From the NCBI GenBank assembly GCA_037101405.1, contig AP017965.1, positions 124,001 to 188,000 on the forward strand: DNA of 64,000 bases. Reading direction: 5' to 3'. The DNA is from Candidatus Megaera polyxenophila. Lineage in GTDB: Bacteria; Pseudomonadota; Alphaproteobacteria; Rickettsiales; Rickettsiaceae. Position numbers and translations under genes: made by a program. This document shows, one piece after another, positions 10,601 to 57,591 of this stretch; position 1 is the stretch's first letter; each line of letters starts with the position of its first letter. A model generated the notes under the pieces. The model was not told the origin of the DNA. It made no database searches and worked only from the letters and a program-made list of their open reading frames with translations.

Positions 10601-10654
10601 AACAAAATTGTAAAAAAATTTATAGGATACTTAAATTCTCTTAAAGTTGAATAA
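7625..10654 (+). CDS. NRPS adenylation-thiolation-condensation (A-T-C) protein
   Basis: A 1009-residue protein. The A domain (about 1-495) has TSGSTGKPKA, NGYGPVEST, YCSGDLG, RKDRQVKILGHRID and the A10 Lys in SRGKVD; the substrate-pocket Asp is D192 (WDAFSLELWG). The carrier domain (about 510-585) has LGISS with Ser546 as the likely pantetheine site; the motif is less canonical than the usual GGHS. The condensation domain (about 595-1005) has intact H724-H725-x3-D729-G730. A C-terminal C domain without a following A-T implies it condenses its own carrier-bound donor onto an acceptor on another protein, most simply the A-T protein at 2297. There is no thioesterase or epimerase domain. No clear Shine-Dalgarno sequence is visible. 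Confidence 0.9.
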   Translation: MPLHVKFELNAKLYPNKTAIIFKDQKITYEQLNYAANNLATSLSNEDVRLGDIVPILLDRTPELIVSIIAVLKIGAIYTLVDIHSNEEKIETLINFLAPKLLITKDNIFSYQKNIKKKIFPELNYNNAGNFIPSSNIDGDSAACIFFTSGSTGKPKAVLSSHNATLRLFIDASVLDFSNKTIIPLAAAVPWDAFSLELWGALVNGGTLWVIDDLYLTSNLLYQGILYHNVNTIWLTSSLFNSIVEEDIESFRGLKYVITGGERLSVHHVKTFLSYYQHEIMLINGYGPVESTIFTTTHKIHIEDCNNCNGIPIGSVIPGTEVFILNKNYDICDGDEIGEIGIAGDGLAIEYFNNKELTNQKFKLIEINGQKKRIYCSGDLGFFTNKVLHYYNRKDRQVKILGHRIDLGEVERKIQKIIDEIVSCRLLVRQDGSNISSEIIAFYILRNSKSLDGAYIIKTLNETLETYECPKVINQIEKFPLTSRGKVDDFALLNILSSIEKNSVAKLPNQYINNDFETNIVKIFSSVTGRAFIDKSTNFQELGISSIDIGRICTRLNKLLGLQIPISIMYKYNTILLLSNYLITESNTNNKQTNLNNLRDTQIIYLTKYLMNPSIPIYYCFMTWKITGDLDIEKLQNAINYTHIKNIALRSIYSLEKSLPTTCTSYIDSPQILYLADVSSKKQALLTLKNTLSKGLNPISGIIWKTAIVSLKNTKTKFFGCVVHHIAFDGYSEHLIALSISNEYNAETKIKVNNSKLDTPIIFRNPTIKNFYDTFEDLDSLSKKLNKCVEIKWSNHDLPKNDNSHYYKSFNLDKLLRLHIDKFATKNNTTRFNILLHYWAKTLYELLINKDFCIAVPIRQRNIPTLKKLIGCHINMVYIYFGSNCFDYDDYHNLQYTNSAIRDAMLTQDIPAIQVIQNMQTYGYNTTKMSQILFALQDNPVPKLQLKNLQTDFLRQPYFNIPFDLHAEIWPIDKNSLELIVSYKKIIPEELINKIVKKFIGYLNSLKVE

Positions 10655-41661: not shown

Positions 41662-42108
41662 ATGGATAATTTAAAAAGAAAAATTATAGAATATATACAA
41701 GAATATAATATTGCGACTTCTGCATTTGAAAAAAAAGCTGGCGTCGGTAATGCAGTTGTTAATAGAATTTTAGATGATACAGTTAAAAATCCCGGTATCG
41801 AAACAATATTAAAAATAGCCGATGTACTCAATTGTTCTCTAGATGAACTATTTAATAGAAATCAATCTTTTAAAAAACATATTCTAAATATTGATACTGA
41901 ACTACCATACAATAATGAACTATTCAGGTCTATATGCCTTTATACTGTTCATTTCATAGAGTTATACCGCATTAATCACCTTACTCTTCAGCAAGTAGGA
42001 TTAGTTATAGAAGAAATATATAAACATTGTTTAGATAGAAAATTAAGCTTAATCGATACTAAGTTTGCAGACTGGTTCCTAAAAGATCATCTTTTAAATC
42101 GTTGTTAG
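41662..42108 (+). CDS. XRE-family HTH regulator
   Basis: 148 residues. HTH domain in the first 70 residues (FEKKAGVGNAVVNRILDDTV, IETILKIADVLNCSLDELFN) and an all-helical C-terminal domain. The IS256 copy inserted 18 bp upstream of its start, which must have replaced its native promoter region. It converges on the STAND gene, overlapping its end by 4 bp. Confidence 0.82.
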   Translation: MDNLKRKIIEYIQEYNIATSAFEKKAGVGNAVVNRILDDTVKNPGIETILKIADVLNCSLDELFNRNQSFKKHILNIDTELPYNNELFRSICLYTVHFIELYRINHLTLQQVGLVIEEIYKHCLDRKLSLIDTKFADWFLKDHLLNRC

Positions 42109-44378
42109 TTATTCTTTAGAAAGCTTTGATACATGGCTTTTGTTCTAAAATGATCAACCCCAAAAATATTCTCGTGTTTACTTAAGTATTCCTTATATAT
42201 TCCTATATTATTATCCATTAATGCTGAGTTAGCTATTTTAAAATACAGATCGCTGATATGGTCAAGTAACATATTTTGCCCATAACAATTATGGTATATA
42301 TTCTCTGCTATCTTATATGCTTGCAGTGCTTCTGCTATTTTATTCTGTCTACGATAAATATCACCTTCTACAATTAAAGCAGCAGCTAAATCATAATCAG
42401 AAGAATCTGATATATTATCTTTTTTTCTTTCTGGTAAAGCTAGAAAGATTTTTTTGGCTAAACTTATATGCTCTTCTGCTTTTTTGATTTTATCTACATT
42501 TAACTCAGCTAATGCAAGCCAAGTCAGGATACGTGCTTGCATTTCATGCGGCTCATCAAAATAACTTTTTGATCTCTTATAAAGTTCTTTAGCTAGTATA
42601 TAAGCAGATTCATAATCTCCTAGTTTAATTAAAATCTCTACTTTTAGTATATGACCAAGTATAGTAAATTGATCTTGCGGTAAGTTTTCTTGGGATTTAA
42701 CTAATTTATTTGCATTTTCTAATGCTAGATTATACTCTCCTTCTGCAAGGAAAATCCTTGCGTAAGAATACCATAATAATCCTTTGTAAAATATATCCTG
42801 ATCTTTTTTAATGAATTCTTCAACTTTCTTTATACTAAGTTTTGCATCATTTATAGCTCCTTTACGGATTCTGCTTTGTGTCAATTGTGAGTATATAGCA
42901 CATTTTAAATCTGCAAAACCATTAACATTTCTTACTGTTTCAGCAGCTTTTTCATAATCATACTCCGCATTTTTTATATCTCTTGCACTATAAGTTTTAT
43001 ATAATCCTACATTCACTAAATACCATGCATAAGCCACTTTTTGATTATTACTCATGTCATGATATTTAATTTCACCTCTGGTCTCCTTATCGATTAGCCA
43101 TTCAACAAATTTTTTGCATTTATCATAATCCCTCTTCGTAAGGTAGAAGAACATAAGATTCTTTCTAAGTTCTAAAATGTCATAAAAATTCACGGCATTT
43201 TTTTCTGCGTTTTCTAGCATTATTTCTAAATTGCTTTGCAGAGTAGGGTCTTTATGAAACAAAGATAAATAATCTGTAATCTTTTCAGGAAATCCTTGAT
43301 TAATTGTTTTGACTATATCTTGCATACTATCTCTGATAACCTTATTACTAGCACTTTCCAGAACAGTCTTCTTTATAAAATCATGTACTTCAAAAATTTG
43401 ATTTTCCTTATAAGTACCTTTATCCTCTATTAAAGCAAACTTACTTAAATCATGCAATATATCTATAACTTTAGAACTATCACTACCAGATAAATTAATT
43501 AATAGCTGCTTTGAAAAATCATGGTTATTAATTAATGCTACCTTAAGTAAAAGATTATTAGCAGCACTACTTAGATTATCAAATATCGTTCCTAGCTGTT
43601 CTTTAGTCCTTTTTACTTCATCAGTTACAGCAAGTATTTTTTTATATTCCTCAATACTTAAATATCGATTATTTTGTAAGAATAAAGTTCCTCGAATTAT
43701 AAGAATTGGATAATCCAAAAAAATTTCCGATAATTTTTCTACATCTCTTAATTTATAATTAGGTAGCAGTTTTTCAATAAGTCCTAGTGCCTCTATTCTT
43801 TTAAGATTCTTTATCGGTATTATATTAGGTAATCCAGTAGTCTCCTGAGAACAAACAACTATGTGACCATTATGACTATCTTCTAGAAATCTAAGTACCT
43901 TATTATTTTCATTAGTTCTTAAATTATCAAATACTAGGATCCACCCTGTTTCATGCCTGAGATAATTCATTACGCTCTCAGAGATATGTTGTATGTCTTC
44001 AGAAATAATACAGGTCGAGCTTTTATTACAAATTTTTAAGTTGATCTGTTTGGCTAAGTTTAAAAACTGATAACTAAAATCAAGATTACAATCAAAAAAC
44101 CATATGATTTTATAATTATCTAAATTTTTTGATAAATATTGCCTGATTATCTGTGTTTTACCTATCCCGGTGAATCCAGTTAAAGATACTACTGAACCAA
44201 TATTACTTAAATTACGCTCTATACTTTTTAGCTCTTCATTTCTACCAGAAAAATACGGAACAGGTAAAGTTGAATTACTTACCTTAACTGAAGACATAGC
44301 TTTATTAGCAGTCAGAAGAACTAACAAAAATACGAATATTAAGTTTTTCCTTTTGTTAAATGAGGTGTTATATCCCAT
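42105..44378 (-). CDS. STAND/NB-ARC-type NTPase with TPR repeats and an apparent signal peptide
   Basis: 757 residues. The N-terminus (KNLIFVFLLVLLTANKAMSS) reads as a signal peptide or anchor. A NB-ARC-like NTPase follows, with Walker A TGFTGIGKTQ (about 67-76), a Walker B WILVFDNL and IVVCSQET as a sensor-like strand. The second half (about 380-740) is TPR-like helices. STAND proteins are signalling switches, usually cytoplasmic, so an export signal is odd. The start overlaps the upstream sensor gene by 40 bp, suggesting one operon. The ligand and output are unknown. Confidence 0.75.
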   Translation of the reverse strand: MGYNTSFNKRKNLIFVFLLVLLTANKAMSSVKVSNSTLPVPYFSGRNEELKSIERNLSNIGSVVSLTGFTGIGKTQIIRQYLSKNLDNYKIIWFFDCNLDFSYQFLNLAKQINLKICNKSSTCIISEDIQHISESVMNYLRHETGWILVFDNLRTNENNKVLRFLEDSHNGHIVVCSQETTGLPNIIPIKNLKRIEALGLIEKLLPNYKLRDVEKLSEIFLDYPILIIRGTLFLQNNRYLSIEEYKKILAVTDEVKRTKEQLGTIFDNLSSAANNLLLKVALINNHDFSKQLLINLSGSDSSKVIDILHDLSKFALIEDKGTYKENQIFEVHDFIKKTVLESASNKVIRDSMQDIVKTINQGFPEKITDYLSLFHKDPTLQSNLEIMLENAEKNAVNFYDILELRKNLMFFYLTKRDYDKCKKFVEWLIDKETRGEIKYHDMSNNQKVAYAWYLVNVGLYKTYSARDIKNAEYDYEKAAETVRNVNGFADLKCAIYSQLTQSRIRKGAINDAKLSIKKVEEFIKKDQDIFYKGLLWYSYARIFLAEGEYNLALENANKLVKSQENLPQDQFTILGHILKVEILIKLGDYESAYILAKELYKRSKSYFDEPHEMQARILTWLALAELNVDKIKKAEEHISLAKKIFLALPERKKDNISDSSDYDLAAALIVEGDIYRRQNKIAEALQAYKIAENIYHNCYGQNMLLDHISDLYFKIANSALMDNNIGIYKEYLSKHENIFGVDHFRTKAMYQSFLKNN

Positions 44379-45748
44379 ACATTACTATCATTATAGAATT
44401 TTTCTTTTTTTAAGCTTTTAATTAACTTTAATTTATTACCAACTCTTTTACCCTGAATATATTCATAACTAAAGCCATTGTCTTCAAACAATTTTATTGT
44501 ATCTTTTATTGACAGTAACCATTGATTATTTGTCTTGGAATAATGCTGCAAACTATAATTTTCAAATTGCTCTCTTGAAAGATTAAAACCTGAACCTGTC
44601 ATTTTTATTTTAAATTGTTCTTTATCTTGCTTAACTTTTATCTTTAAGTGAGACCCTTTAGGTAATATAGATAAAAGATTCCAGGTTAGACTAAAGATTA
44701 ACTGACGTAAAATTTCTTCACCTATATCTATATTAAGACGTTCTGCTTCCATCACCTCATTTTCCACTCTTATAGATATACCTTTAATTTCAGAATCAAG
44801 TGCAAAATATTCAATACATTCTGTCAGTAATTGCTTGATATTTACTGTAAGCGTTTCGTTTAAATTGTTTGTCGTGTTTATGATATTAATAGTGTCTCTC
44901 TTTAACTTATTCTTTATCATTTTTATCAACCTATTATCTATCTCCTGTTTATGCTGTCTTAGTAACTCAAGTTTTTTATAAGTTACCAATTGTTCTTTTA
45001 AAACTTGAGTCTCCTGCATTAATTTTAATGAATAATTATAGAAAAATTTTTTAACTCCTAAAAACAGAAACAATACAAATAGATTTATGAAAAAAAATAC
45101 AGTAATAAAAAGTAAAGCACCATTAGTAAAGATTTGCCTTATTTGCTTTTCTAAATAAGAATTTTCTATATACATTTTTACTGAAACTTCAAAATTCCCA
45201 ATAGTGTGATAATCACTCTGCACTGACGAAATGGCAGCATGGCGGTTGTTTTCTATAATATTTAAATTATTAATCATTACAGAATATATTAAAAAATTAG
45301 GCAGAAAGTTATCCAAAAAGCTCCTTGCTTCTACCATACTAATACTAATACAAAAACCATGACAAAGTGACAATATCATACCATTTTGTTTATCAAGCAG
45401 TATTTGATAAGATTTACTATTATGTTTAGCCATGATTTTCTTGGGATTAGTTATAGATATGATTTTTAGTATAGAAAGTTGAAAATTCATTTTGTTTGCT
45501 ATATTCTGGTAATCAGCAATTAATTGTTGATTACCAGATTCATAGTTACTTTCAACAATTTCTAATAGATAGTGAAGTTTATTAAGATCATTAATCACAT
45601 AACAGAATTTTTTCTTGGCTTGGGAAAATACATTTTCATAATCTTTGCTGTTTTGAGTATTCCAATAAAATATAAAAATCCCAGTACATAAAACAGAAAC
45701 CAATAAGGAGATACTACAGGATATAATTATGACTTTTCTTTGCAACAT
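44339..45748 (-). CDS. Membrane sensor protein with degenerate histidine-kinase-like ATPase domain
   Basis: 469 residues. Two membrane helices (about 5-28 and 210-235) enclose a periplasmic sensor domain; a coiled coil (about 240-290) and a region resembling a HATPase domain follow (EEILRQLIFSLTWNLLSILP, resembling an N-box, then QFKIKMTGSGFNLS). I see no H-box with a phospho-acceptor His and no clear G boxes, so kinase activity is doubtful. It may pass a signal by contact to the STAND protein encoded downstream (inference). Confidence 0.6.
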   Translation of the reverse strand: MLQRKVIIISCSISLLVSVLCTGIFIFYWNTQNSKDYENVFSQAKKKFCYVINDLNKLHYLLEIVESNYESGNQQLIADYQNIANKMNFQLSILKIISITNPKKIMAKHNSKSYQILLDKQNGMILSLCHGFCISISMVEARSFLDNFLPNFLIYSVMINNLNIIENNRHAAISSVQSDYHTIGNFEVSVKMYIENSYLEKQIRQIFTNGALLFITVFFFINLFVLFLFLGVKKFFYNYSLKLMQETQVLKEQLVTYKKLELLRQHKQEIDNRLIKMIKNKLKRDTINIINTTNNLNETLTVNIKQLLTECIEYFALDSEIKGISIRVENEVMEAERLNIDIGEEILRQLIFSLTWNLLSILPKGSHLKIKVKQDKEQFKIKMTGSGFNLSREQFENYSLQHYSKTNNQWLLSIKDTIKLFEDNGFSYEYIQGKRVGNKLKLIKSLKKEKFYNDSNVWDITPHLTKGKT

Positions 45749-46379
45749 TCAACTTATCCAAAAAAGCAAGCAATAATTAAGAATAAGTGACTAACGAACA
45801 TTATAATTGGCTACGACGAATGTTAAAATTACCCATTTTAACCCGTTGTTGAATGAATCTGTACAATTTATATAAAATACCACTCCTTTACCCAAATTTT
45901 AAGCGGTATATTCCAATGGTTGTATAGTAAAAACTGCAAACATATTAAATATTTTACATTCTCACTTTTATTTGGTTTTTTGTCGTCATTATTTATTTGA
46001 TATTATCAAATCTTAACAATTAACGTCTCAAAATTTATCACTTTTCCAATTCCCTCAACAAGGGATCGTAAATCTTTAACTTTTTTAAGATATTAAAACG
46101 TTACTTCTTCAAGGATTTATTTACCTTGGAGGAGACACAGATGCCTCATTTATCTATCTTTATAGCAGGATTGGTTATTTAAACCCGACCAATGCTTTAT
46201 CTACACTTTCAATAAACTGTTTTATTATACCAGCAAATAACATCATAACCAACTCTCTACTATCGTTTTGCCCTTATTTTTAGCATTTCTACAAGGAATA
46301 AGAACAATAATTGAGGTAGTATGGAAGATTTGGTATTGCTCTAAATTTAACAATTATTACCATTATTGAATTTTTATAG
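45749..46379. other. Non-coding gap with no supported gene
   Basis: About 630 bp, very A/T-rich, upstream of the sensor gene. A good ribosome site (TTGGAGGAG at 46126) precedes ATG at 46141, but the frame stops after 13 codons (MPHLSIFIAGLVI), suggesting a remnant. Any promoter of the minus-strand sensor/STAND operon should lie in the first 100 bases; I could not fix one. Confidence 0.4.
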
Positions 46380-46663
46380 AACAATCCTGAACAGAAATTT
46401 ATAGCTAGAGAAATAGCCGAATGGATATATGCACATTATCCGGATCGCTGCTGGCAAAAACAACAAAAATCAAAAGCAACGGCAATTCCCTTAGATAATG
46501 ATCAAGTCCTGTTCAACAAATAGTTGGAGAAATCGGATCAAAGAGATCGACTTTACAAAAAAAATATCCCAAAATAAAAATCATGGAAGGAAGACCAAGA
46601 AAATATTACTTCACGAAATCAACCGATAGTGCAGAAATAGATAAATCAGGATCATACTATTAA
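46380..46663 (+). pseudogene. Small DNA-binding-like protein, frameshifted remnant
   Basis: The frame reads PEQKFIAREIAEWIYAHYPD and RCWQKQQKSKATAIPLDNDQ, then shifts and continues VQQIVGEIGSKRSTLQKKYP and IKIMEGRPRKYYFTKS to a stop at 46663. The joined reading resembles a winged-helix or HTH protein (IAREIAEWI, then GRPRKYYF as a wing). No intact start was found. The parent gene is unknown. Confidence 0.5.
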
Positions 46664-46692
46664 TTTCATCATTTTTTTTTGGGATATTACAA

Positions 46693-46950
46693 TTATAAAT
46701 AGCGTTTTATTTCTTCAAGTTGCCCCAGTACGTTTTGTGAATTAAACAGTAAATGTTCCTTCTGTGGAACTTGTCGTTCCAAAAATGACACTACTAAAAC
46801 ACAAAATTCTCTTGGCACTACCACAAATTCATTATCAGTTTTTGATTTTAACCACATTGATAAACTATGGGTAGAAATATCATTACTCATACCCCAGAGA
46901 AGTTTGGATATTTCTTCTCGTGAAATAAAACGGTCTTTTATTGCAGTCAT
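46693..46950 (-). CDS. Small hypothetical protein
   Basis: 85 residues, soluble, with a possible HTH-like stretch (FISREEISKLLWGMSNDIST, HSLSMWLKS). It starts 2 bp after the preceding gene's end, suggesting a two-gene unit. No family recognised. Confidence 0.5.
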   Translation of the reverse strand: MTAIKDRFISREEISKLLWGMSNDISTHSLSMWLKSKTDNEFVVVPREFCVLVVSFLERQVPQKEHLLFNSQNVLGQLEEIKRYL

Positions 46951-46952
46951 TT

Positions 46953-47114
46953 TTATACCTCCACTTCTCTTAGAGAGAAATAAAGATATAACATATTGGT
47001 AATACTTATTTTCTCGAATGATTTGATATTATTTAATATGAAATTGATATTGGTATAATTTTTTGCCCCAAAGATTGTATCTTTACTTAAGGCGGAATTG
47101 TTGCTACTATACAT
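46953..47114 (-). CDS. Small hypothetical protein
   Basis: 53 residues starting MYSSNNSALSKDTIFGAKNY. The ATG at 47114 is preceded by CAGGAGAAT, a clear ribosome site; a longer reading from 47282 would pass through the terminator hairpin at 47204 and is unlikely. Followed closely by the gene ending at 46693. Function unknown. Confidence 0.45.
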   Translation of the reverse strand: MYSSNNSALSKDTIFGAKNYTNINFILNNIKSFEKISITNMLYLYFSLREVEV

Positions 47115-47203
47115 ATAATTCTCCTGCAAAGGTTGAGTTAATGAACTATTGAGAATATATAGACGTGTCAAAGTATAAGTATTCTCAGTCACAAGACATA
47201 AAA

Positions 47204-47235
47204 ACGTTTGAAGCTCCAACTTCAGGCGTTTTTTT
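47204..47235. terminator. Bidirectional rho-independent terminator
   Basis: A 10-bp stem ACGTTTGAAG / CTTCAGGCGT (two G-T pairs) with a 6-base loop (47214-47219). T-run at 47229-47235 and A-run at 47200-47204, so it can act in both directions. On the minus strand it separates the winged-helix gene at 47301 from the small gene at 46953. Confidence 0.7.
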
Positions 47236-47300
47236 ATGCCTTGCTTATAGATTAGTATATATGAGAATTTAAAAACTGTCAATATTTTGTATTGATATTT

Positions 47301-47606
47301 TTAATTTATTTTCTGGGCTTCGTAATGTTTTTGTATTTCTTCAAATTTATTTCTTTTTAATTTAAAAGTATTAAAAACATTCCTTGAATCTTTTACCTCT
47401 TCTATTAATTCGTGTTTTATAAAAGTTTCTAAAGCTTTATAAACAACTGGTCTTGAAACTTTAGATAACTTACTCAATTTTAGAATACTTACAATTGCAA
47501 CATCATCAACCGAAATTAGTAACAGAGTTTTCAATACTTTGCGATGGCTTGGAGTAAACGCTTCATAAGCACTTATGGCTTCAATTAATAATTCTTTATC
47601 CTTCAT
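47301..47606 (-). CDS. Winged-helix transcriptional regulator (MarR/TrmB-like)
   Basis: 101 residues with a winged-helix pattern: VAIVSILKLSKLSKVSRPVV then YKALETFIKHELIEEVKDSR, followed by a wing and a charged tail. It lies just downstream of rep on the same strand. It may control rep or par expression (inference from position). Confidence 0.65.
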   Translation of the reverse strand: MKDKELLIEAISAYEAFTPSHRKVLKTLLLISVDDVAIVSILKLSKLSKVSRPVVYKALETFIKHELIEEVKDSRNVFNTFKLKRNKFEEIQKHYEAQKIN

Positions 47607-47764
47607 AGAAATTTACAAGAATTTTTTTTTACAATTGGTTTACTTATAATAAATAAACTTTTTTATTACAACTTCAACAAAAATCTTGATTGATCTTATA
47701 ATTTCAATGGGTTAATCTGTTGCTCTTTTCCACTTTAAGCTTTTTAAACATAAAAAATCTACAC

Positions 47765-49276
47765 TTAGCAAAAATAAACCTTAAACTGCTCTTTATTGAC
47801 TAGCCTCTCTATAGCGTGGAAATAATTAGTTTCTATCCAATCTTTAGAAAAACTAGTTGCAGCTTTGAGTTTAATCTCTCTCCGTTCTTCATTAATATTT
47901 GTTGTAAGCTTTGAAAACCAATTACGGTCAGTTGCTTCACCATAAATCTCTATTAATTTTTCCCTCACCCTACCCCACATTCCTACCGGTAATGGTGATT
48001 TTTTTGTTTTATTCTGATCAATCGGCGTTATAGTCGCTTTTGCCGGCATAATTATCTGAAGTTCATGAATATAAACAGATTCGCCATCCGTAATATGATC
48101 TTGTCGATAAATGGATCGTATTTCTTGAAGAATTTGCCCTTTTTCCGCAGCAGTTATTTCTACATGAATTGATAAATAAAGGTAAAACGTACTTTCTCTA
48201 ATATCTGCGGCCTTACATGCCTGAAGCAAATCATAAGCTGTTTTAGGCGCAAGGCGGGATGCTAACCTCTTCTTAAGTAGCCCTTGTGGCAAAGTTTGGC
48301 AGCTTTCTTCTATTTTACTTAAGTATTTTTCCCTTTCTTTATTTTCTATTTCCTCAAGGTTTAAGTTATTTCTGATTTTAAAACTATTATTATTGATTTT
48401 TACCGCATCCCTCTTTTCGTAATTCAGGGCTTTGGCCATATAGTTCATGAAAGCCTTCCTACTTTTGAAGAAGCGATCTGTCAGGCGTTTTGACATATCA
48501 AGCAATATTTCATTCATGCTATTTAATGAAAATTCTCTTCCTGATAATGATTGTAATTTATAACAATCATCTTTGTTTAATGGGTAAAAGTCTTTTAATT
48601 CTTTAATTTCATTACGATTAAACCGAATAACCTTTTTTATCGGATTTTCTTCTCCAAAAGAATTTTTATAAAAATTAGATTCGCTTGCAATAGATCTATT
48701 TTTAAATATATTATTCTTATTCTGATCATCTATTATATGATCTCCTCTAAAATGAGGAGATCTCCCCTCTTTTTTAGGCACAGAAAAATCAGGTTTGACG
48801 GGATTGTTGATAGTTTTTAGCTCGGTAAATTTTTTATTATCTGCATAAGAACTTAAAAACTGAGGACTTAAGTGAATGAATAGCCTGTTGTTATAAGTCT
48901 GGCCTCTTAACTTAACATTGCGGAATTCTCTGGTACAAATACCCATTTGTTCTAGTTTGACAAAAATTCTCCGAAGTTTTTCCCGATTAAACCCGAATTT
49001 TTTCTCGAAATGTTCATAAGAAGTTTGCCAGGCATCCCCAAGAAACTTATTTACATAAGTAATATCACCTGTTTGGTTATCTTTTACCTTTTTGGGACGA
49101 TACCAATAAACAATTTCCGCAAGAACAGAAATTAAGGAAAGATCAGGCCTGCCACGACTGTTGGTAAATTTCTTGTACCAATCATGAGGCGTAATGTTCC
49201 CAGTTAATATAGGGTGATGAATAATTTTGTATTGCTTGTGTGCAACATTAGTAGCGAAAGTAGATTTACGTCCCAT
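47765..49276 (-). CDS. Plasmid replication initiation protein with C-terminal DnaA_N-like domain
   Basis: 503 residues. The N-terminal part (about 25-160) is a winged-helix Rep-like region (TPHDWYKKFTNSRGRPDLSL, then EKLRRIFVKLEQMGICTREF). A linker rich in Lys/Asn follows. The C-terminal 80 residues (WGRVREKLIEIYGEATDRNW, LKAATSFSKDWIETNYF) resemble domain I of DnaA, which contacts DnaB. Known Rickettsia plasmids carry such DnaA-like initiators. The gene lies beside parA on the same strand. Its presence is the main reason to call this a plasmid or plasmid-derived region. Confidence 0.82.
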   Translation of the reverse strand: MGRKSTFATNVAHKQYKIIHHPILTGNITPHDWYKKFTNSRGRPDLSLISVLAEIVYWYRPKKVKDNQTGDITYVNKFLGDAWQTSYEHFEKKFGFNREKLRRIFVKLEQMGICTREFRNVKLRGQTYNNRLFIHLSPQFLSSYADNKKFTELKTINNPVKPDFSVPKKEGRSPHFRGDHIIDDQNKNNIFKNRSIASESNFYKNSFGEENPIKKVIRFNRNEIKELKDFYPLNKDDCYKLQSLSGREFSLNSMNEILLDMSKRLTDRFFKSRKAFMNYMAKALNYEKRDAVKINNNSFKIRNNLNLEEIENKEREKYLSKIEESCQTLPQGLLKKRLASRLAPKTAYDLLQACKAADIRESTFYLYLSIHVEITAAEKGQILQEIRSIYRQDHITDGESVYIHELQIIMPAKATITPIDQNKTKKSPLPVGMWGRVREKLIEIYGEATDRNWFSKLTTNINEERREIKLKAATSFSKDWIETNYFHAIERLVNKEQFKVYFC

Positions 49277-49439
49277 AATTACTCCTTATTTACGGAGTAA
49301 AACCTTGACTTTTAATCTCATTATGCCTATTATGAATAGTACTTATTTCTATTATTAGATAATGCTTGCAGGCTTATTTAATTTATAATAGGAAACATGG
49401 GGTTAAGCTTTTCTAGGTTTAACTCCTTTTTTATTATTT

Positions 49440-49607
49440 TTACTTGTTTTTCTTTATCATTGCTATTTTTTCCATAATTGCACTTGTAATCCAACTTGAG
49501 CGATCCTGTTTTGTTTCTTCTCTATAAGTATCTAATTCAATCAATAACCTTTCTGGGATGTTAATTGATATTTTAGTTTTTCCATCTGGGATGTTTGTTT
49601 TAGCCAT
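49440..49607 (-). CDS. Small ribbon-helix-helix DNA-binding protein
   Basis: 55 residues. ISINIPERLLIELDTYREET and DRSSWITSAIMEKIA form the ribbon and two helices of a CopG/Arc-type fold. The gene lies between rep and the partition genes, a typical place for a copy-control repressor (inference). The ATG at 49607 follows a weak AGATAGCAACTT leader. Short but convincing. Confidence 0.75.
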   Translation of the reverse strand: MAKTNIPDGKTKISINIPERLLIELDTYREETKQDRSSWITSAIMEKIAMIKKNK

Positions 49608-49797
49608 AAGTTGCTATCTCTTTATACTTTACCGTTGATATGTACGCTAAAACACCGTATTGTTTAATACATATAGTAAATATAATACGAAATCAATACG
49701 TATTATTTAAAAACAACAATAAATATTATTTTTTTATCTAAATTGTATTATTTTTGTTTTATTAAAGTAATATATATTAAAAAAAAGAAATATAAGT

Positions 49798-49826
49798 GTA
49801 TTACGTAAGTAATACATCTGTAATAC
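49798..49826. repeat. Iteron array 1 (GTAWTAC motifs, 11-bp phase)
   Basis: Three 7-bp motifs start at 49798 (GTATTAC), 49809 and 49820 (both GTAATAC), so each is 11 bp from the next and on the same helix face. The array lies downstream of the partition operon, upstream of the small RHH gene. The core AGTAATACATCTGTA recurs at 52036. Confidence 0.7.
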
Positions 49827-49872
49827 ATAAGTGATTAAAAAAAACCCTTTTATTCCAAAGAGAAAAGCTGTT

Positions 49873-50190
49873 TTATGAGGAACTTTTTATATAAGGCAAA
49901 AGTTTTTTAAGGTTATTGTCCATATTATCTGAGATATAATTTATTATACCCCTTATAACCTGAGAATCAGAATAACTCATTCTTTCATCACTATTATTAA
50001 TTTTTGTTGTAATAGTTGATAAACTTATAAAATCAGCTTCTCTTAGTCTAAACGATTTAGTTTTAAACAAAGAAGATTTATTAGGCGATTTGATAAAACC
50101 AGTTTTTTCTATATTACTACCTTCTGTAATTTGTGTAAGTGTCTTAGAAAGTTTTGATTCTGATAGCGAATTTAATTTCTTATTAAGCAT
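49873..50190 (-). CDS. Small partition partner (ParB/RHH-like centromere-binding candidate)
   Basis: About 105 residues starting [13 protein letters not shown] flexible basic N-terminus is followed by [20 protein letters not shown] and [18 protein letters not shown], which could be a RHH-like fold. It overlaps parA by 8 bp and ends the operon, the usual position of the DNA-binding partner of a ParA ATPase. An earlier ATG at 50232 overlaps more. The motif is not diagnostic; the call rests on size, position and nearby phased repeats. Confidence 0.6.
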
Positions 50191-50953
50191 AATGGATAAC
50201 CTCTTCTGTAAGGAGGTTAAAGTCTTGAGCACCTTTTGAAGAAGGGTTGAATACTTGTATAGGTAAGCTTGTTATCTGAGCCTGATTAATTGCTTCATTT
50301 TTCCTGATTGTCGTTGTAAATGTGTTGTCACTGAGCGATTTTAATTGTTCATGGATGTATCTGTTTGTTTGAGTATTTCTTTGTTCATATAAATTTTTTA
50401 AAACAAAAAAATTATATGTTTGACCTTCTTTTATTTCTTTGATTGCCCCAAGTAAGTCAGCCATTCCGTCTAGCGAATATTTACCAAAACTAGTAGGAAC
50501 AATAATGGAAGTAGCGCAATATATAGCATTAATAGCTAATATCCCTAGGGTTGGTGGGCAATCAAGAATTATATAATCAAAATCATTTATAATTCTGTCA
50601 ATATGATTTTTAAGAATTTTTTCTCTATAAAGAGCTCCGCTGATTTGCTCTATCACGGTTGCTAGTTTTATATTAGAAGGTATAATATTTAGTGTATCAA
50701 TAGTTTGTTCTTGAACTATTGCTGGTAACATTATGTCTCTTAAGTTAAGTTTTTTATTTGTAAAAGCGGCAGAGATAGTTTTATCTGCGGGTATTGTAGG
50801 ACAATAAATACAACTTGAGTGACATTGGGGATCTAAGTCAATAAGAAGAACTTTTTTCTTTTTTAAATGAAGGCCATAAGCAAGGTTTACAGAAATTGTT
50901 GATTTTCCTACCCCGCCTTTTTGGTTTATTATAGCAAGAATTTTACAGCTCAT
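50183..50953 (-). CDS. parA: ParA-family partition ATPase
   Basis: 256 residues. Deviant Walker A KGGVGKST at residues 12-19, the A-prime motif DLDPQCHSS, and Walker [10 protein letters not shown]. There is no N-terminal HTH, so it is the short type in which the small partner usually does the repressing. It moves plasmid copies apart on the nucleoid. Phased GTAWTAC motifs lie immediately upstream (50985-51002). Confidence 0.93.
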
Positions 50954-50984
50954 AATTTACGTTTGATTTTTTTGTGTTACATTT

Positions 50985-51145
50985 GTATTACTTTGGTAAT
51001 GCTAATGTATTATATTAAATACTTTTTTTTACGCAAAGACTATTTTAATTTTAAATAAAAAACAAATCAAAAACAAAATAAATAAGTTAGTTAAGTAATA
51101 CGAACGTATTACTTAACTAGTACAAATATACTACTGTAGTAATAC
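50985..51145. repeat. Iteron array 2 upstream of parA, with a 32-bp palindrome
   Basis: GTATTAC at 50985 and GTAATGC at 50996 are 11 bp apart. Further upstream GTAATAC at 51095, GTATTAC at 51106, degenerate units at 51117 and 51128, and GTAATAC at 51139 keep an exact 11-bp phase. Units 51095 and 51106 lie in a perfect palindrome with 15-bp arms (TAGTTAAGTAATACG, 51088-51102 and 51105-51119) and a 2-base centre. This suits a centromere or operator bound by a RHH protein. Confidence 0.72.
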
Positions 51146-51233
51146 TTTTTGATGTTTATAATTCAAGGGCTTATCAAAAAAAATATAAAATTTTTATATT
51201 TTACATTAGTTAAAGGTTGATCTTACAACCTTC

Positions 51234-51593
51234 TTAGACATTATATGGGATCTTAATATCAGCTCCTAATCCTTGAAAATCTTTGGTATTTCTAGTTATT
51301 AATAAGCTATCTGTGTATTTTGCAGTAGCCCAGATTATAGCATCTGGGATTTTTATTTTATTTTCCTTTCTTATATTAACTGCAATTTCAGCAATTTTGT
51401 CATTAAGAGGAATTATATTAAAACCATTCAAAAACTCCTTTATTATTTCTTCATTATCGGTTACCCCAACTAGTATTTCCATTTTTGTAATTATACTGAT
51501 TTGAGGGGAATGATACTGCTCGATTTCTTTTTTGGCTAACAGATTACCAATTAAATAATCTATCAATATATTAGTATCAAATACAGCTTTCAT
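51234..51593 (-). CDS. vapC: VapC-family PIN-domain ribonuclease toxin
   Basis: About 119 residues. Acidic residues of the PIN active site are visible: AVFDTNILIDYLIG at the start, KMEILVG, IPDAIIWATAKY and LLITRNTKDF. These coordinate metal for RNA cleavage, usually of tRNA or rRNA. ATG 51593 overlaps the antitoxin stop (ATGA). Confidence 0.9.
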   Translation of the reverse strand: MKAVFDTNILIDYLIGNLLAKKEIEQYHSPQISIITKMEILVGVTDNEEIIKEFLNGFNIIPLNDKIAEIAVNIRKENKIKIPDAIIWATAKYTDSLLITRNTKDFQGLGADIKIPYNV

Positions 51594-51817
51594 GAGTCCC
51601 ACTCATTCCTTAATTTTTGCTGATAGTCCAAACTGTCCAATTTTTTCCTTTTCCAAACCCCAAATGCTAATTCATAACTTTTTTTACTATTACTGTAGCT
51701 ATTTATGTATTTTGTTAGAGCTTCCCTTATAAGACTTGCTCTTGATACATTTTTCTTTTTTGATACCTGATCTAGAATTTTTACTTGTGAATCAGGTATG
51801 TCAACAATAGTTCTCAT
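51590..51817 (-). CDS. vapB: Ribbon-helix-helix antitoxin of VapBC
   Basis: About 75 residues starting MRTIVDIPDSQVKILDQVSK, with VSRASLIREALTKYI as the helices of a RHH fold, and a C-terminal tail ending FGVWKRKKLDSLDY. The ATG at 51817 is preferred over 51844 since it gives the canonical ribbon start. It is the first gene of the pair. Confidence 0.85.
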   Translation of the reverse strand: MRTIVDIPDSQVKILDQVSKKKNVSRASLIREALTKYINSYSNSKKSYELAFGVWKRKKLDSLDYQQKLRNEWDS

Positions 51818-52214
51818 ATTAATACCTATTATACTTGTTATCATTATCTGATATAATATAATATAATCTTAATTCTTTCAAGAAAAACCTACTTATTTCA
51901 CCGGTCATTCTTCCCATTGCTTTATATATCTTAACTAACGCCAGTTTCGCATTAGAACATACATGAACACTAGTCTTTTCCTAGGATATCATTACTATAG
52001 GTAGGGAAATATAATATTTTATTTAGTAATACTTAAGTAATACATCTGTATTTCTTAAGTATTACAGATGTATTATAATATTTTTTATTCTAAGTTCTGA
52101 TTTTGATATAGAAAATGTGGGTTCAGATTGTTATAGAATCATTTCCTCAAGTGGAGGCATTCTTGCACGCTTTTTAACAGTAGGTAATTCCTAATGTTCG
52201 TTAGTCATTAGTCA
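51818..52214. other. Gap between VapBC and the symporter-kinase gene
   Basis: No gene is visible. The main content is the iteron array at 52026-52076. A direct repeat of GTCATTA (three times, 52201-52221) lies at the end of the symporter-kinase gene. The promoter of vapBC is expected near 51845-51880 but no clear boxes were fixed. Confidence 0.45.
52026..52076. repeat. Iteron array 3 (five units, 11-bp phase)
   Basis: Units start at 52026 (GTAATAC), 52037 (GTAATAC), 52048 (GTATTTC), 52059 (GTATTAC) and 52070 (GTATTAT), exactly 11 bp apart. It is the most regular array in the window and shares AGTAATACATCTGTA with array 1. The region lies outside the par operon, beyond VapBC. Confidence 0.75.
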
Positions 52215-55010
52215 TTAGTCATTAATTGTCAAAGTAAATGCAACAGTAACTCCTTTGTCTTGGTTCTGTTTAGCCCATATCTGACCGTTATGTGCTTCAA
52301 TAACTTTTTTAGATAAGGCAAGCCCTATACCTCTTCCACCTGCAGGAGTTTTAGTATTTGAACTAACGGTAAATGGTTCAAAAACTTCAAATAGTTCATC
52401 TTTTGGAATGCCTATTCCTTCATCTTTTACACTAAAAACAATAGTGTGGTTTTGCTCCGGTTTCAGCTCAATTGTAATTGTTCCCTGCTTACAGTATTGA
52501 ATAGCATTTACTATGATATTATCGATAGTACGTGAAATGTAGTACTGATCACATAAAGCGGTTAATTCATTATCTATTTGTAAGTTAAACCATAAGTCTT
52601 CTTGATCTTTATCCTGAATATACAGTTTTTTACATAGTTCTAACCTTTTATAAACTAAATCAGATAAGTTTACTTGAGACTTATTTAACTGGTAGTTAAT
52701 ATTATTAAGTTTTGATAAATCAATAAGATTATTTACTAAACTGGTTAATCTTTCGGAACTATCAGCAATATCTTTGGTTGCATTACGCCTTTGTTCTTCA
52801 TTAAATTTATCGTAGTTAGCCCATAAAACCTGTCCGAGACTAGTAATACCGGTAATTGGGGTGCGTGTTTCATGTTCCAGGTTTCGTAAAAGCTCATTTT
52901 TAATTTCGTATAGCTTAGTTAGTTCTTTCTTCTGGTCTATTACTTTATGTTCTAAATAATTTGATTTTTGTTCAATTTCTTCTTCATAAGCTTGTTTTGG
53001 TCTAAAAAAGATAACAATAGCAGTACCAGCTAGTAAAAAGGTATAGATAATAAGTGAAGTAGAAGCCATATTAATAACAATATTATCTATACCTGTATAG
53101 TATTGATAAGCTTTTATACTTGAATAAATACCTACTATCATCATAGTAAGTAATAATTTCCATCGAGTTAATATTGCAGCTACTATTAGGTTGACAATAA
53201 ATACTACAAACTGCAAATGGCTAAAGTTGCTTAACATTAGAAAAAAGCTACTACAAAAAATCAATAGGAAAAAGATACTTATACTCCAAGCTATTTGTGC
53301 AATATTATCTTTTTTTATAGTTGATGGCCAAATAGGATAAGTCGTAAAACACACAGATAATACAAGCATAATCTCATAAAATGGTAATATTGTATCTTTG
53401 TTTTGGCCATCGATAACGTTAGATATGGAGTACATAGTAGAGATAGTAGAAATGGTAGAAAAGATACCAAAACTAGTATAAGTTAAATCCCTTTTAGGTG
53501 AATTATTCTTACAAAAAACCATTAAATCAAATTCTGTAATAGCTTTTATAAGTTGATGAAATTTATGTTTAGCTATAGTTCCGTTACTACAAGACAATTG
53601 GTTATTTTTTTTATTAATCCATCCTCCATTTTGCTTTAATAGATAATGGCTTCCCATAAAGAATATTAAATTAACAATTGTTCCAGGTAGAATACTATCA
53701 ACCCCAGTAGTATCCATAAAATATATTCGCCATACTATAACACTTACAAAGCCTGCTCCCATACCTATTAAAACTGATTTTGTCGTACTACGAAAACCTA
53801 AGATAGCCAATATAAGAGGTACATCAATTATTGGGATATAGAAACTTTGGGTCATAAATACCAGCGGTAACAAATCATAATCAAGTAATGCTAAATATAT
53901 GGAAATTACCCCAAGTAATACCGAAATAATTTTGGACAAGACTAATTCACTTTTAAATTTTATATTTAGTGGATAACAAAAATCGTGAGTTAATAGAACT
54001 GATGAAGCATTTATATTAGAATCAGCTGTAGACATACACATGGCTACTACACCTACCATTATAAAACTTTTAAGTCCTGTATGAGCGTAGTTATTTGTTA
54101 TGTATTGTACTAAGTCTTTAGGATTAAGATTAGGGTCGATATTGAATAGAAGAAATGCAATCCATGCCATTCCAATTAAAATTAACATTAGTAATATAGC
54201 TGAAATACTAAAAGCTTTTTTAACCTGAGAGACACTACGTCCTATGGCCACTCTCTGGAACATAGTTGGGTTCAAATCTGGTATGGAAAAAAGCAGAAAC
54301 AATAATAATACCGACCAAAATTTAGGATTCGAAAGACCTAAGAACTCTTCATAATTAAATAGAGGGTGTTGAACAGCAGTTACTAGATTAAAGGTAGGAA
54401 GACTGCTTAAGTCGTTCCATATAACGATACCCAAAACAGGTATTAATACGCCAAAAGTAAAGAATTGTATCACATCTGTAAAAGTAACTGATCTAATTCC
54501 TCCAACGCTAGAGTATAATATCACTACAGATGCAGCTAAAAAAATTGGATAGTTTCCAGATAATCCTAAAAAATCATTTAAAATATAACCGAAAACTTTA
54601 AACTGTACTGCTATGAAACCTGCGGAAGCAATAGCTCCTCCTATAGCTGATATAAGTCTTACGTGTTTCCCATATAAATCTCCCATTGCTGAAGCTACAG
54701 AAATGCTCCCTAGAAATTCACTCATTTTTGGAACAAAAACATACGCATTTAGGAATAAGCACACTACCATCCCCAAACAACCAATAGTGTAATGTAATCC
54801 GGTGGTGTAAACCTCAGCTATCGTTATAAAAAGATAATCCCCGCCAATCCACGTAGCAACTATTGTAGAAACTAAAGCCCCAGTAGAAAAATTTCTGTTT
54901 CCTAAAGAGTAATCCTTTATGTTTTTTACTCCTCTTCCATAGTAAAGGCCTACTACAAGATTAAGGGTTAAAAACACAATAAAGACTACTGTATCAATAT
55001 TAAATTGCAT
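52215..55010 (-). CDS. Sodium/solute symporter fused to a sensor histidine kinase
   Basis: 931 residues. The first about 480 form an SSF-type (SLC5-like) transporter: SLGNRNFSTGALVSTIVATW, VGGIRSVTFTDVIQFFTFGV, and about 12 hydrophobic helices. A second group of helices (about 515-670) and a coiled coil follow. Then comes the kinase: H-box LEHETRTPI with His713, N-box DNIIVNAIQY, VKDEGIGIP and GGRGIGLALSKKVI. CbrA-type proteins share this fusion; they link transport or substrate presence to phosphorelay. No response regulator is encoded nearby. Confidence 0.9.
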   Translation of the reverse strand: MQFNIDTVVFIVFLTLNLVVGLYYGRGVKNIKDYSLGNRNFSTGALVSTIVATWIGGDYLFITIAEVYTTGLHYTIGCLGMVVCLFLNAYVFVPKMSEFLGSISVASAMGDLYGKHVRLISAIGGAIASAGFIAVQFKVFGYILNDFLGLSGNYPIFLAASVVILYSSVGGIRSVTFTDVIQFFTFGVLIPVLGIVIWNDLSSLPTFNLVTAVQHPLFNYEEFLGLSNPKFWSVLLLFLLFSIPDLNPTMFQRVAIGRSVSQVKKAFSISAILLMLILIGMAWIAFLLFNIDPNLNPKDLVQYITNNYAHTGLKSFIMVGVVAMCMSTADSNINASSVLLTHDFCYPLNIKFKSELVLSKIISVLLGVISIYLALLDYDLLPLVFMTQSFYIPIIDVPLILAILGFRSTTKSVLIGMGAGFVSVIVWRIYFMDTTGVDSILPGTIVNLIFFMGSHYLLKQNGGWINKKNNQLSCSNGTIAKHKFHQLIKAITEFDLMVFCKNNSPKRDLTYTSFGIFSTISTISTMYSISNVIDGQNKDTILPFYEIMLVLSVCFTTYPIWPSTIKKDNIAQIAWSISIFFLLIFCSSFFLMLSNFSHLQFVVFIVNLIVAAILTRWKLLLTMMIVGIYSSIKAYQYYTGIDNIVINMASTSLIIYTFLLAGTAIVIFFRPKQAYEEEIEQKSNYLEHKVIDQKKELTKLYEIKNELLRNLEHETRTPITGITSLGQVLWANYDKFNEEQRRNATKDIADSSERLTSLVNNLIDLSKLNNINYQLNKSQVNLSDLVYKRLELCKKLYIQDKDQEDLWFNLQIDNELTALCDQYYISRTIDNIIVNAIQYCKQGTITIELKPEQNHTIVFSVKDEGIGIPKDELFEVFEPFTVSSNTKTPAGGRGIGLALSKKVIEAHNGQIWAKQNQDKGVTVAFTLTIND

Positions 55011-55332
55011 GATTTAACTCCAACATTGTTCTAGTTAAATTATTAGTTAAAATAAGATAATTAGAAATGACAAATTTATATTTTAATATTAACTGGGATT
55101 TTTTATGAAAATGAATTATCCCCAAAACTTATATACATTAAAACCTTTGCTCTAACCTATAATCTTTGAGAATAGATTGACATTTGTCAACGTATAAGTT
55201 GAACTTTAGTAACAGACTTTTGGTTTTTTAATCTTATATAGGAGTTGATATGATGCTTATTAAGAAATTAACCCTATCAACAAAAGAAATAAAGGTAAAC
55301 TAAAAATATATATAATTTTTTTACCTGGGAGC
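55011..55332. other. Gap upstream of the symporter-kinase gene
   Basis: Contains the perfect palindrome TTGACATTTGTCAA (55177-55190), which carries a -35-like TTGACA on each strand, and a short reading frame of 16 codons from 55252. A stretch at 55192-55222 (ATAAGTTGAACT then AACAG) has a related copy at 57471-57500 on the far side of the IS256 copy. No supported gene. Confidence 0.4.
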
Positions 55333-55540
55333 TTAGTCTGAATATTTGACGGACTGGAACACTTTTAATTTATTGTTACTATTTTTGTTACGCTGTAGCG
55401 TTGGTATAGATTGTACTAAAAAATAGACAGGAACTTGGTCATTCCCTATTTCTAAAAATTTTATCTGATATCTCTTGCCTATCCCTAAACATACTTTTTG
55501 AAATACTTGATTGACCGATCCAGCAAACACCGCTCAGCGA
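55333..55540 (-). pseudogene. IS200-type (Y1 HUH) transposase remnant
   Basis: The fragment GKRYQIKFLEIGNDQVPVYF and LVQSIPTL closely follows the core of TnpA of IS200/IS605 elements, where the equivalent is FLEIG-x-D-x-DHVHFLVQS. The HxH pair appears replaced (DQVPVYF), and both ends of the gene are missing. It is a dead remnant. Confidence 0.5.
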
Positions 55541-55934
55541 TATTTCGCTGGAAATGCCATCTGATATAGTAAAACAGTAACATTGTGGCTTTTGTGTATA
55601 TATTTGATCATTCTTCCATTTTATGTCATAAGCAGTTGAGAATATAATCAAAAAGAGTTTAAAATAAATCCATACACTTGTGTTTTTGATGTGGCCTTAC
55701 CAAAAACAAGTATATATAAATTACTTTGATAAAATTCCTTACAATTAGTCTCCTCTAAGTGATTTAACCTAGAGGAGTAGCTAAAATATATATGCAAAAA
55801 ATTAATAATTAAATAAGAATAATATTAACTTTACAACTCTTTCTTAAAATACTAAATTTAAACCTCCTTAATAAAAATAAACTAATTAATTTGTAATGCA
55901 GGAAGAATTTGTTAATGTAATACTTGAGATATTA
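55541..55934. other. Non-coding gap before IS256 copy 2
   Basis: A/T-rich, no supported gene. An inverted repeat CTCCTCTAAGTGATTTAACC then TAGAGGAG (55751-55783) could form a weak hairpin. Nothing else seen. Confidence 0.3.
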
Positions 55935-57361
55935 GAGTTATGATGGAAAGTTGTGTATGGAGGTGAGATAGAAGATTAGGTGGCGTATTCGCAAATTAAT
56001 ATTATTATTGTAATTTGCAAATCCTATTAACAATAAAATAAGGAATACACCATGAGAAAGAGTAATATAATTGATTATAAAAATCCAACACAAAATTTAG
56101 TAACAGATGTATTAAGTGAGTTTTTAAGGGAGTCAGCTCAAAAAATGTTGCAACTAGCTATAGAGGAAGAGGTACAAAATTTTATATCATCCTACCAAGA
56201 TAAGTTACTTACTAATGGGAGTAAACAAGTCGTCCGCAATGGCTACTTACCTGAGCGCAACATACAAACCGGTATAGGAGAGGTAGCAGTAAAAGTACCA
56301 CGGGTAAGAGATAGAGGTAAAGAGGATATAAAATTCTCTTCTAATCTGATTCCGCAATACATGAGGCGTACGGTTACTATAGATGTTCTATTACCGCTAC
56401 TTTATTTAAAGGGAATATCTACTACAGATTTTGCTGATAGCTTTGAACCTATATTGGGTAGCAAGCCAAAGAACTTATCACCTAATGTAATATCCAGGCT
56501 AAAATCTGAGTGGTATGATCAATATTTGTTATGGCAAAGACGAGATTTAACAAAGAAGAAATATGTCTACTTCTGGGTTGATGGTATTTATTTACAGGCA
56601 AGAATGGAATCGGAGAAGAACTGTATTTTGGTAATAATTGGTGTTGATGAATACGGAAAAAAGGAATTGGTCGCTATAGATGATGGTTTTAGAGAAAGCA
56701 AGGAAAGCTGGCAAGGATTATTACTCGACATAAAAAGCAGAGGTCTGATACACTCTCCTGCCTTAGCTGTTGGAGATGGAGCACTTGGTTTTTGGGGAGC
56801 TCTGACAGAAGAATATCCTACTACGGTACATCAGCGCTGTTGGGTACATAAGACTTCTAATATTTTGAATAAGTTACCAAAATCTCAGCAAGCTAAAGCC
56901 AAGCAAATGATACATAATATTTATATGGCTAGTTCTAGAGAAGAAGCTGAATCCAGTTGGAAAAAATTTATCTTGGCTTATTCTGCTAAATATCCTAAGG
57001 CTACAGAATGCTTATTGAAAAATGAAAAAGAGTTATTAGCTTTTTACGATTTTCCAGGGGAGCACTGGATACATTTGCGGACAACTAATCCTATTGAATC
57101 TACCTTTGCTACGGTTAAGCATAGAACTAGAAAATCTAGGAATTGTTTTTCGAGAAATACTATTATTGCTGCTACCTATAAATTATTCCTTGAAGCAGAA
57201 AAAAGGTGGAAACCTTTACGAGGTAAAAACCGCATTGCCCAAGTTATTAATATGGAAAAATTTATAGATGGAATTCATGTAAGTGAAATTAGTAACGATA
57301 ACTTAAATGAGAAAAAATATGTTGCCTAATTTTTTTCATACACAACATTTGACAATAACTC
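55935..57361 (+). mobile_element. IS256-family element, copy 2 (inverted relative to copy 1)
   Basis: Same ends as copy 1 apart from the outermost base, and about the same length. No 8-bp target duplication is visible: left flank GATATTA, right flank AGGGAAAT. This suggests that one end was exchanged by recombination. With copy 1 it bounds a segment of about 14 kb carrying rep and par. Confidence 0.88.
56052..57329 (+). CDS. IS256-family transposase (copy 2)
   Basis: 425 residues, translation identical to the copy at 40248-41525, with all catalytic residues. The identity supports recent duplication and a good substrate for homologous recombination. Confidence 0.95.
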   Translation: MRKSNIIDYKNPTQNLVTDVLSEFLRESAQKMLQLAIEEEVQNFISSYQDKLLTNGSKQVVRNGYLPERNIQTGIGEVAVKVPRVRDRGKEDIKFSSNLIPQYMRRTVTIDVLLPLLYLKGISTTDFADSFEPILGSKPKNLSPNVISRLKSEWYDQYLLWQRRDLTKKKYVYFWVDGIYLQARMESEKNCILVIIGVDEYGKKELVAIDDGFRESKESWQGLLLDIKSRGLIHSPALAVGDGALGFWGALTEEYPTTVHQRCWVHKTSNILNKLPKSQQAKAKQMIHNIYMASSREEAESSWKKFILAYSAKYPKATECLLKNEKELLAFYDFPGEHWIHLRTTNPIESTFATVKHRTRKSRNCFSRNTIIAATYKLFLEAEKRWKPLRGKNRIAQVINMEKFIDGIHVSEISNDNLNEKKYVA

Positions 57362-57591
57362 AGGGAAATCCAAAAGGGGGGAAATGGCAAATATCTTGAT
57401 AAAAGTATTTGCATCTTAAAACTTAAATTCATAAATGTATTCCATAATTAGGCACTGCACATTATATATTATAAGTTGAACTCTAACAACAGTTTTTCAT
57501 GAATTACCCAACGCCTTAAAGAGCGTTTGGCTTCTTGCTTAATAATATCATAACTAATGAAGAAAAATAACAGAGAACTATACAGCATAAC

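Follow-up and report, generated by a model that had tools for sequence, protein, structure and literature searches.

Type Ib partition systems include those of pTAR, TP228 (ParFGH), pB171 (par2), pSM19035 (delta-omega) and pMF1. The parS site of pTAR has 7-bp repeats about one turn apart. In this class a ParA of 192–308 aa that lacks an N-terminal DNA-binding domain is paired with a centromere-binding protein of 46–131 aa; repeats are found at the par promoter, and the centromere-binding protein is also an autorepressor (PMC3235114). RHH binders normally work with a ParA-type ATPase in these systems (PMC3235114, PMC5016525). Several parS blocks at separate promoters, also present twice on the plasmid, make pSM19035 a close architectural parallel to the Candidatus Megaera locus described here (PMC5016525), whereas TP228 parH, with degenerate tetramer boxes and AT-rich spacers (PMC7308502), and pMF1, with AGATGTCT-like units (PMC3235114), differ from it. 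The type II ParMRC system of R1 resembles the proposed Megaera system in its 11-bp repeats and its RHH-type binder, which needs two or more repeats to bind, but its motor is the actin-like ParM (PMC9426499).

Rickettsial plasmids have been described with a parA and, in the available text of these accounts, without a recognised parB of the Megaera kind or a centromere (PMC9004397, PMC1800911). The parA genes of R. felis pRF are given there as 'possible cytokinesis regulatory protein', and the 'parB' of this plasmid is a nuclease-like gene located elsewhere (PMC1800911). For the operon of R. monacensis pRM no parB-like gene was found, and the binder and the centromere were left open (PMC9004397). 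The GTAWTAC boxes that are the subject of this study are not described in the parts of the pRF and pRM accounts available to us (PMC1800911, PMC9004397).

With a ParA of 256 aa, a candidate centromere-binding protein of 105 aa and a repeated site at and near the par promoter, the Megaera locus agrees with type Ib in protein size, domain content and position of the site. It is set apart from the known members by its own box sequence and 11-bp step, and by a ParB that matches no named family. A preliminary description of this DNA had regarded the ParA-type ATPase as an oddity beside an RHH-type binder; such surprise is unnecessary, since this combination is the normal type Ib pattern (PMC3235114, PMC5016525). 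Two other classes were considered and rejected. The ATPase belongs to the ParA/Soj family and is not the actin-like ATPase of type II ParMRC, and the long ParA with an N-terminal DNA-binding domain and the long ParB of type Ia ParABS are absent (256 and 105 aa, respectively).

Replicon and genes of the par region

The stretch of DNA analysed, hereafter the window, is 64,000 nucleotides long and comprises bases 124001–188000 of a 201,158-base contig from a genome of 1.99 Mb. Its par region is 99.6–99.8% identical to that of two circular Candidatus Megaera/Megaira plasmids, pMegNEIS296 (84 kb) and p1_M_poly_crypto (173 kb), and we therefore take the replicon to be of the plasmid type. Judged by its sequence, the par locus is a Rickettsiaceae plasmid locus of Ca. 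Megaera, so that the earlier attribution to Rickettsia has to be corrected: the organism is not Rickettsia proper. The A+T content at the locus is ∼70%. The genes follow one another on the − strand in the order vapB, vapC, parA, parB, 55-aa RHH gene, rep:

51590..51844, − strand: vapB, VapB-type RHH antitoxin of 84 aa; a neighbour, separate module
51234..51602, − strand: vapC, PIN-domain toxin; a neighbour, separate module
50183..50953, − strand: parA, 256-aa ParA/Soj-type ATPase with a deviant Walker A and without an N-terminal DNA-binding domain
49873..50190, − strand: parB candidate, predicted centromere-binding protein of 105 aa; the gene shares 8 bp with the 3′ end of parA
49440..49607, − strand: 55-aa RHH gene between parAB and rep, conserved in Rickettsiaceae relatives
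47765..49276, − strand: rep, DnaA_N-domain protein (PF11638, 3.6e-11), probable plasmid replication initiator

Residues 3–177 of ParA match AAA_31 (2.9e-46), and Soj/ParA structures were also matched. The 105-aa ParB candidate has an N-terminal tail with a conserved SKL and a C-terminal strand-helix-helix region (SFRLR...). With this protein, Pfam and NCBIfam gave no match to an RHH model and the PDB none to an RHH chain of known structure; the Pfam and PDB profile searches brought up chance matches only. An AlphaFold model built from the one sequence was weak (mean pLDDT 45). An RHH fold is nevertheless likely, given the predicted order of strand, helix and helix and the conserved FRL strand motif. 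The N-terminal tail of type Ib binders carries an arginine finger. Lys13-Leu14 is invariant in the tail of the Rickettsiaceae ParB, which is without a clear Arg; the tails of gamma-proteobacterial relatives are of the LNRR type. The gene is kept directly after parA in all relatives and is present in 11 of the 344 Rickettsiales genomes searched.

The 55-aa protein gave weak matches to HicB-like antitoxins and to RHH proteins, and its single-sequence AlphaFold model, also weak, has the order strand-helix-helix. It is probably a regulator, and we do not favour it as the protein that binds the boxes. A conserved element, AATAATATT/AATATTATT, is found upstream of its gene in all eight loci (window 49608–49790 and the corresponding stretch of seven relatives), in 14 copies versus 1.3 expected from shuffles (at most 6); in two of the genomes, G016 and G036, the copies are spaced about 23 bp apart. 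The element could be the operator of the 55-aa protein or a set of origin repeats.

The contig has two copies of a 15.4-kb block that contains rep, parAB and adjoining genes. The copies are inverted relative to each other, essentially 100% identical (window 41973–57363 and contig about 51955–67346), and bordered by one and the same type of element, with a 425-aa transposase. Either a recent IS-mediated duplication produced the second copy, in which case one replicon would carry two identical centromeres, or the duplication is an artefact of assembly. Several other genes of the window were recorded. A 931-aa protein (52215–55010), annotated differently on related plasmids, has a sodium:solute symporter-like membrane domain fused to a histidine kinase. 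A 757-aa protein (42105–44378) combines TPR repeats with an ATPase region that is NB-ARC/STAND-like; its FxSxx_TPR match is below the cut-off. Translations of 2297–10654 point to NRPS-like adenylation/condensation genes together with a thioesterase, an aminotransferase and a thymidine-phosphorylase-like gene. An Rfam search of the window gave no match.

Arrangement and frequency of the boxes

The box GTAWTAC (GTAATAC or GTATTAC) is palindromic, and four short runs of it surround parAB in strict 11-bp register:

49798..49826: array 1, three perfect boxes (49798, 49809, 49820), 46 bp past the parB stop
50974..51013: array 2a, boxes at 50974, 50985, 50996 and 51007 with 1, 0, 1 and 1 mismatches, 21–60 bp upstream of parA
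51095..51145: array 2b, boxes at 51095, 51106, 51117, 51128 and 51139 with 0, 0, 2, 2 and 0 mismatches (two degenerate)
52026..52076: array 3, boxes at 52026, 52037, 52048, 52059 and 52070 with 0, 0, 1, 0 and 1 mismatches, between vapB and the histidine-kinase gene and about 1.1 kb upstream of parA
51088–51119: exact 15+15 inverted repeat with a 2-nt centre, TAGTTAAGTAATACG-AA-CGTATTACTTAACTA

The preliminary description had listed three arrays with a 7-bp motif at exact 11-bp steps. The steps are confirmed, for instance in the three perfect boxes of array 1 and the five units of array 3. Its second array does lie directly upstream of parA, but consists of two runs, 2a and 2b, that share one register (50985 to 51095 is 110 bp, or 10 × 11). 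The perfect palindrome noted there is indeed exact; it is centred on two boxes of array 2b and gives a terminator-like hairpin score on the − strand. The turn of B-DNA is 10.5 bp. A step of 11 bp is slightly longer, so that each box is rotated by roughly 17 degrees relative to the one before it; the earlier notion of helical phasing on one face thus holds in the sense that the boxes are near one face of the DNA in short runs, but they are not strictly on one face.

Array 2a overlaps a TATAAT at 51009–51014 that we take as the −10 element of parA, and direct reading of the sequence places a TTGCGT 16 bp upstream of it. A consensus promoter scan found no excess, and the parA promoter (TTGCGT/TATAAT) was not among its calls.

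The window contains 25 copies of GTAWTAC, where 9.6 would be expected. Its density is 4.3 per kb within 49780–52090 compared with 0.24 per kb elsewhere; a similar density of the motif at random elsewhere, which the preliminary description had named as the outcome that would speak against a centromere, was not found. With up to two mismatches allowed, the window contains 14 pairs of boxes at 11 bp, 13 of them at the par locus, while shuffles contain 1.3. The scan for enrichment that had been proposed gave a clear result when extended to the whole genome and to exact pairs with gaps of 0–30 bases: the 11-bp step, an 18-bp match, is found only at the par locus and its identical duplicate, and all remaining exact pairs have other spacings. 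From the shuffled box density, ∼0.04 exact 11-bp pairs would be expected in the entire genome.

Conservation of the boxes and the protein that they follow

Among the ParA matches in 85 Rickettsiaceae genomes, a clearly separate subfamily of 59–80% identity stands out. This species apart, it is found in eight genomes, and the remaining matches are near 30–39%; another search with ParA returned general Soj/ParA relatives only (28–38% identity). The eight diverged Rickettsiaceae loci contain the same boxes at the same 11-bp step while their flanking DNA differs, and GTAWTAC-like boxes are located upstream of parA in most relatives and after parB in several. When at most one mismatch per box was allowed, boxes were separated by 11 bp in 52 pairs, by 22 bp in 28, by 33 bp in 17 and by 44 bp in 8, versus 0–6 pairs at other spacings, and shuffles gave 0.35 pairs at the 11-bp spacing. 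The comparison with related plasmids suggested earlier thus establishes that the boxes are kept in other Rickettsiaceae. In G016, the most diverged member of the family, no run was detected at the scoring used; 11-bp units can be read by eye. Of the 10 genomes with the ParA subfamily, 7 contain an exact pair, compared with 5 of the 75 that lack it (Fisher p = 1.6e-5). Three of these five genomes were inspected; two of the pairs fall within an unrelated gene or overlap a gene end, and the third belongs to an intergenic inverted repeat of 40 bp. In a genome of another Rickettsiales family, with a remote ParB (E 2e-9), the boxes take the form RTAWTAY, and three runs of them at the 11-bp step flank parAB; no such runs occur in shuffles or at steps of 9, 10, 12 or 13.

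Two contigs, 62,829 and 39,263 bp long, each have a relative of the par locus at base 1852. The available part of the R. felis report gives 39,263 bp as the size of pRF-delta (PMC1800911), so that the two contigs are probably pRF and pRF-delta, and R. felis pRF probably carries a par cassette of this kind.

Distant alpha- and gamma-proteobacterial plasmids that encode a ParA and a small ParB retain the core of two boxes, TAC-N4-GTA, next to parA and in many cases also downstream of parB. On Skermanella pSM-4 (ParA 47%) the rep gene is different and ParD/ParE take the place of the 55-aa gene, while the 102-aa ParB aligns over its full length to the Rickettsiaceae ParB profile (hhalign E 1e-5). 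CTAC-N4-GTAG is present in nine copies within 22 kb of this plasmid. Eight of the copies form pairs spaced 23 bp apart around par, and there are no sites with a spacer of 3, 5 or 6. We also examined 13 gamma-proteobacterial plasmids sampled by ParA similarity alone (35–40%). A match of 11–12 out of 12 positions to GTANTAC-N4-GTANTAC is present within 200 bp upstream of parA in 12 of the 13, at a distance of 38–95 bp in 10 of these, and seven plasmids have a 12/12 match downstream. Summed over the gamma plasmids, scores for the 4-bp spacer are well above those for 2, 3, 5 or 6; the Vibrio J383 plasmid scores best with a 5-bp, not a 4-bp, spacer. The gamma ParB of about 100 aa has a C-terminal pattern in common with the Rickettsiaceae ParB (hhalign E 3.8e-5, 65 columns). 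Hosts of GTATTAC-N4-GTAATAC or close variants are Vibrio, Photobacterium, Shewanella, Moritella, Enterobacter and Citrobacter, and this gamma-proteobacterial site may have been described in earlier literature. The two-box site was not found on the Bacteroidota plasmid sampled.

Across these plasmids the boxes go with ParA and the 105-aa ParB; they do not follow Rep, VapB or the 55-aa RHH protein. Three small RHH candidates for the binder had been put forward. Among them the comparative evidence favours the 105-aa protein. The 84-aa candidate is a VapB-type antitoxin encoded next to VapC, and it can be ruled out as an obligatory partner: another Megaera plasmid, CP113872.1, has a 93% identical vapBC with no boxes nearby. 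The 55-aa candidate is absent from Skermanella, where boxes flank parAB; within the Rickettsiaceae it is inseparable from ParB, since the two genes occur in the same genomes.

Proposed role of the boxes

We believe that the boxes serve a type Ib ParABS partition system as its centromere (parS) and operator, and we give this reading, which is drawn from sequence comparison, a probability of roughly 0.86. It is in line with the earlier proposal of a centromere around the partition operon served by a small RHH-type binder, which the comparative evidence supports. In the mechanism that we infer, every palindromic GTA-W-TAC box would be occupied by one dimer of the 105-aa ParB, with the RHH-like C-terminal region of the protein making the contact, and dimers 11 bp, or about one helical turn, apart would line up side by side to form a short protein-DNA filament on each run. 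The minimal site would be two boxes with TAC-N4-GTA at the centre. As array 2a covers the TATAAT, a filament formed there would block the parA promoter and should repress parAB. Arrays 1, 2b and 3 would be further loading sites that mark the plasmid, all runs together making up the partition complex. By likeness to type Ib systems (PMC5016525, PMC7308502), the flexible N-terminal tail of ParB would contact nucleoid-bound ParA-ATP and stimulate its hydrolysis, and the plasmid would thereby move along the nucleoid.

It is improbable that the boxes are only an operator for autoregulation of parAB with no role as a centromere, even though array 2a overlaps the presumed parA promoter and gamma plasmids often have a two-box site immediately before parA. 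Arrays 1 and 3 are away from that promoter, and sites after parB recur in the Rickettsiaceae, in the other Rickettsiales family, in Skermanella and in several gamma plasmids. The operator and centromere readings overlap, because one type Ib protein is both the centromere binder and the repressor (PMC5016525, PMC7308502).

Marginally less probable still is that the boxes are a centromere bound by the 55-aa RHH protein instead of the 105-aa protein. The 55-aa protein is RHH-like and its gene is found in the same Rickettsiaceae genomes as the boxes, but the boxes of Skermanella pSM-4 stand beside parA and the 102-aa ParB with ParD/ParE in place of the 55-aa gene, gamma plasmids carry a gene for a ParB-like protein of ∼100 aa after parA, and the 55-aa gene has an upstream element of its own.

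We consider it very unlikely that the boxes are replication-origin iterons for the DnaA_N-domain Rep. The rep gene lies about 0.5 kb past array 1, and in several relatives genes like it come next; however, the repeats do not track Rep, the core site stays next to parAB where the rep gene is a different one, as in Skermanella and the gamma plasmids, and one run is on the parA promoter with another 1.1 kb away on the far side of parA. Chance periodicity in DNA of ∼70% A+T, or terminator hairpins such as the score of the 15+15 inverted repeat might suggest, is refuted almost beyond doubt by the genome-wide count of 11-bp pairs, the shuffles, the local density and the conservation of the boxes in differing flanks.

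Beyond the role of the boxes as the centromere and operator of this locus, we propose tentatively, and at somewhat less than even odds, that a single unnamed type Ib ParB family reads TAC-N4-GTA on alpha- and gamma-proteobacterial plasmids and that the Rickettsiales extended the two-box site into continuous 11-bp arrays. TAC-N4-GTA could then be a general partition and incompatibility code of this plasmid class that lacks database annotation.

Type Ib is a known class of partition system; the binder and site of the Megaera-type family were not previously recognised on rickettsial plasmids in the available text of the literature searched. A specific candidate protein and site, common to Megaera and other Rickettsiaceae plasmids, can now be named. 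The rule of a TAC-N4-GTA site beside parA, often also after parB, may be used for finding partition sites and predicting incompatibility, and should be useful for the many proteobacterial plasmids whose ParB is annotated 'hypothetical protein'. For Ca. Megaera itself, the boxes are very probably the plasmid centromere by which the plasmid of this symbiont is shared out at cell division.
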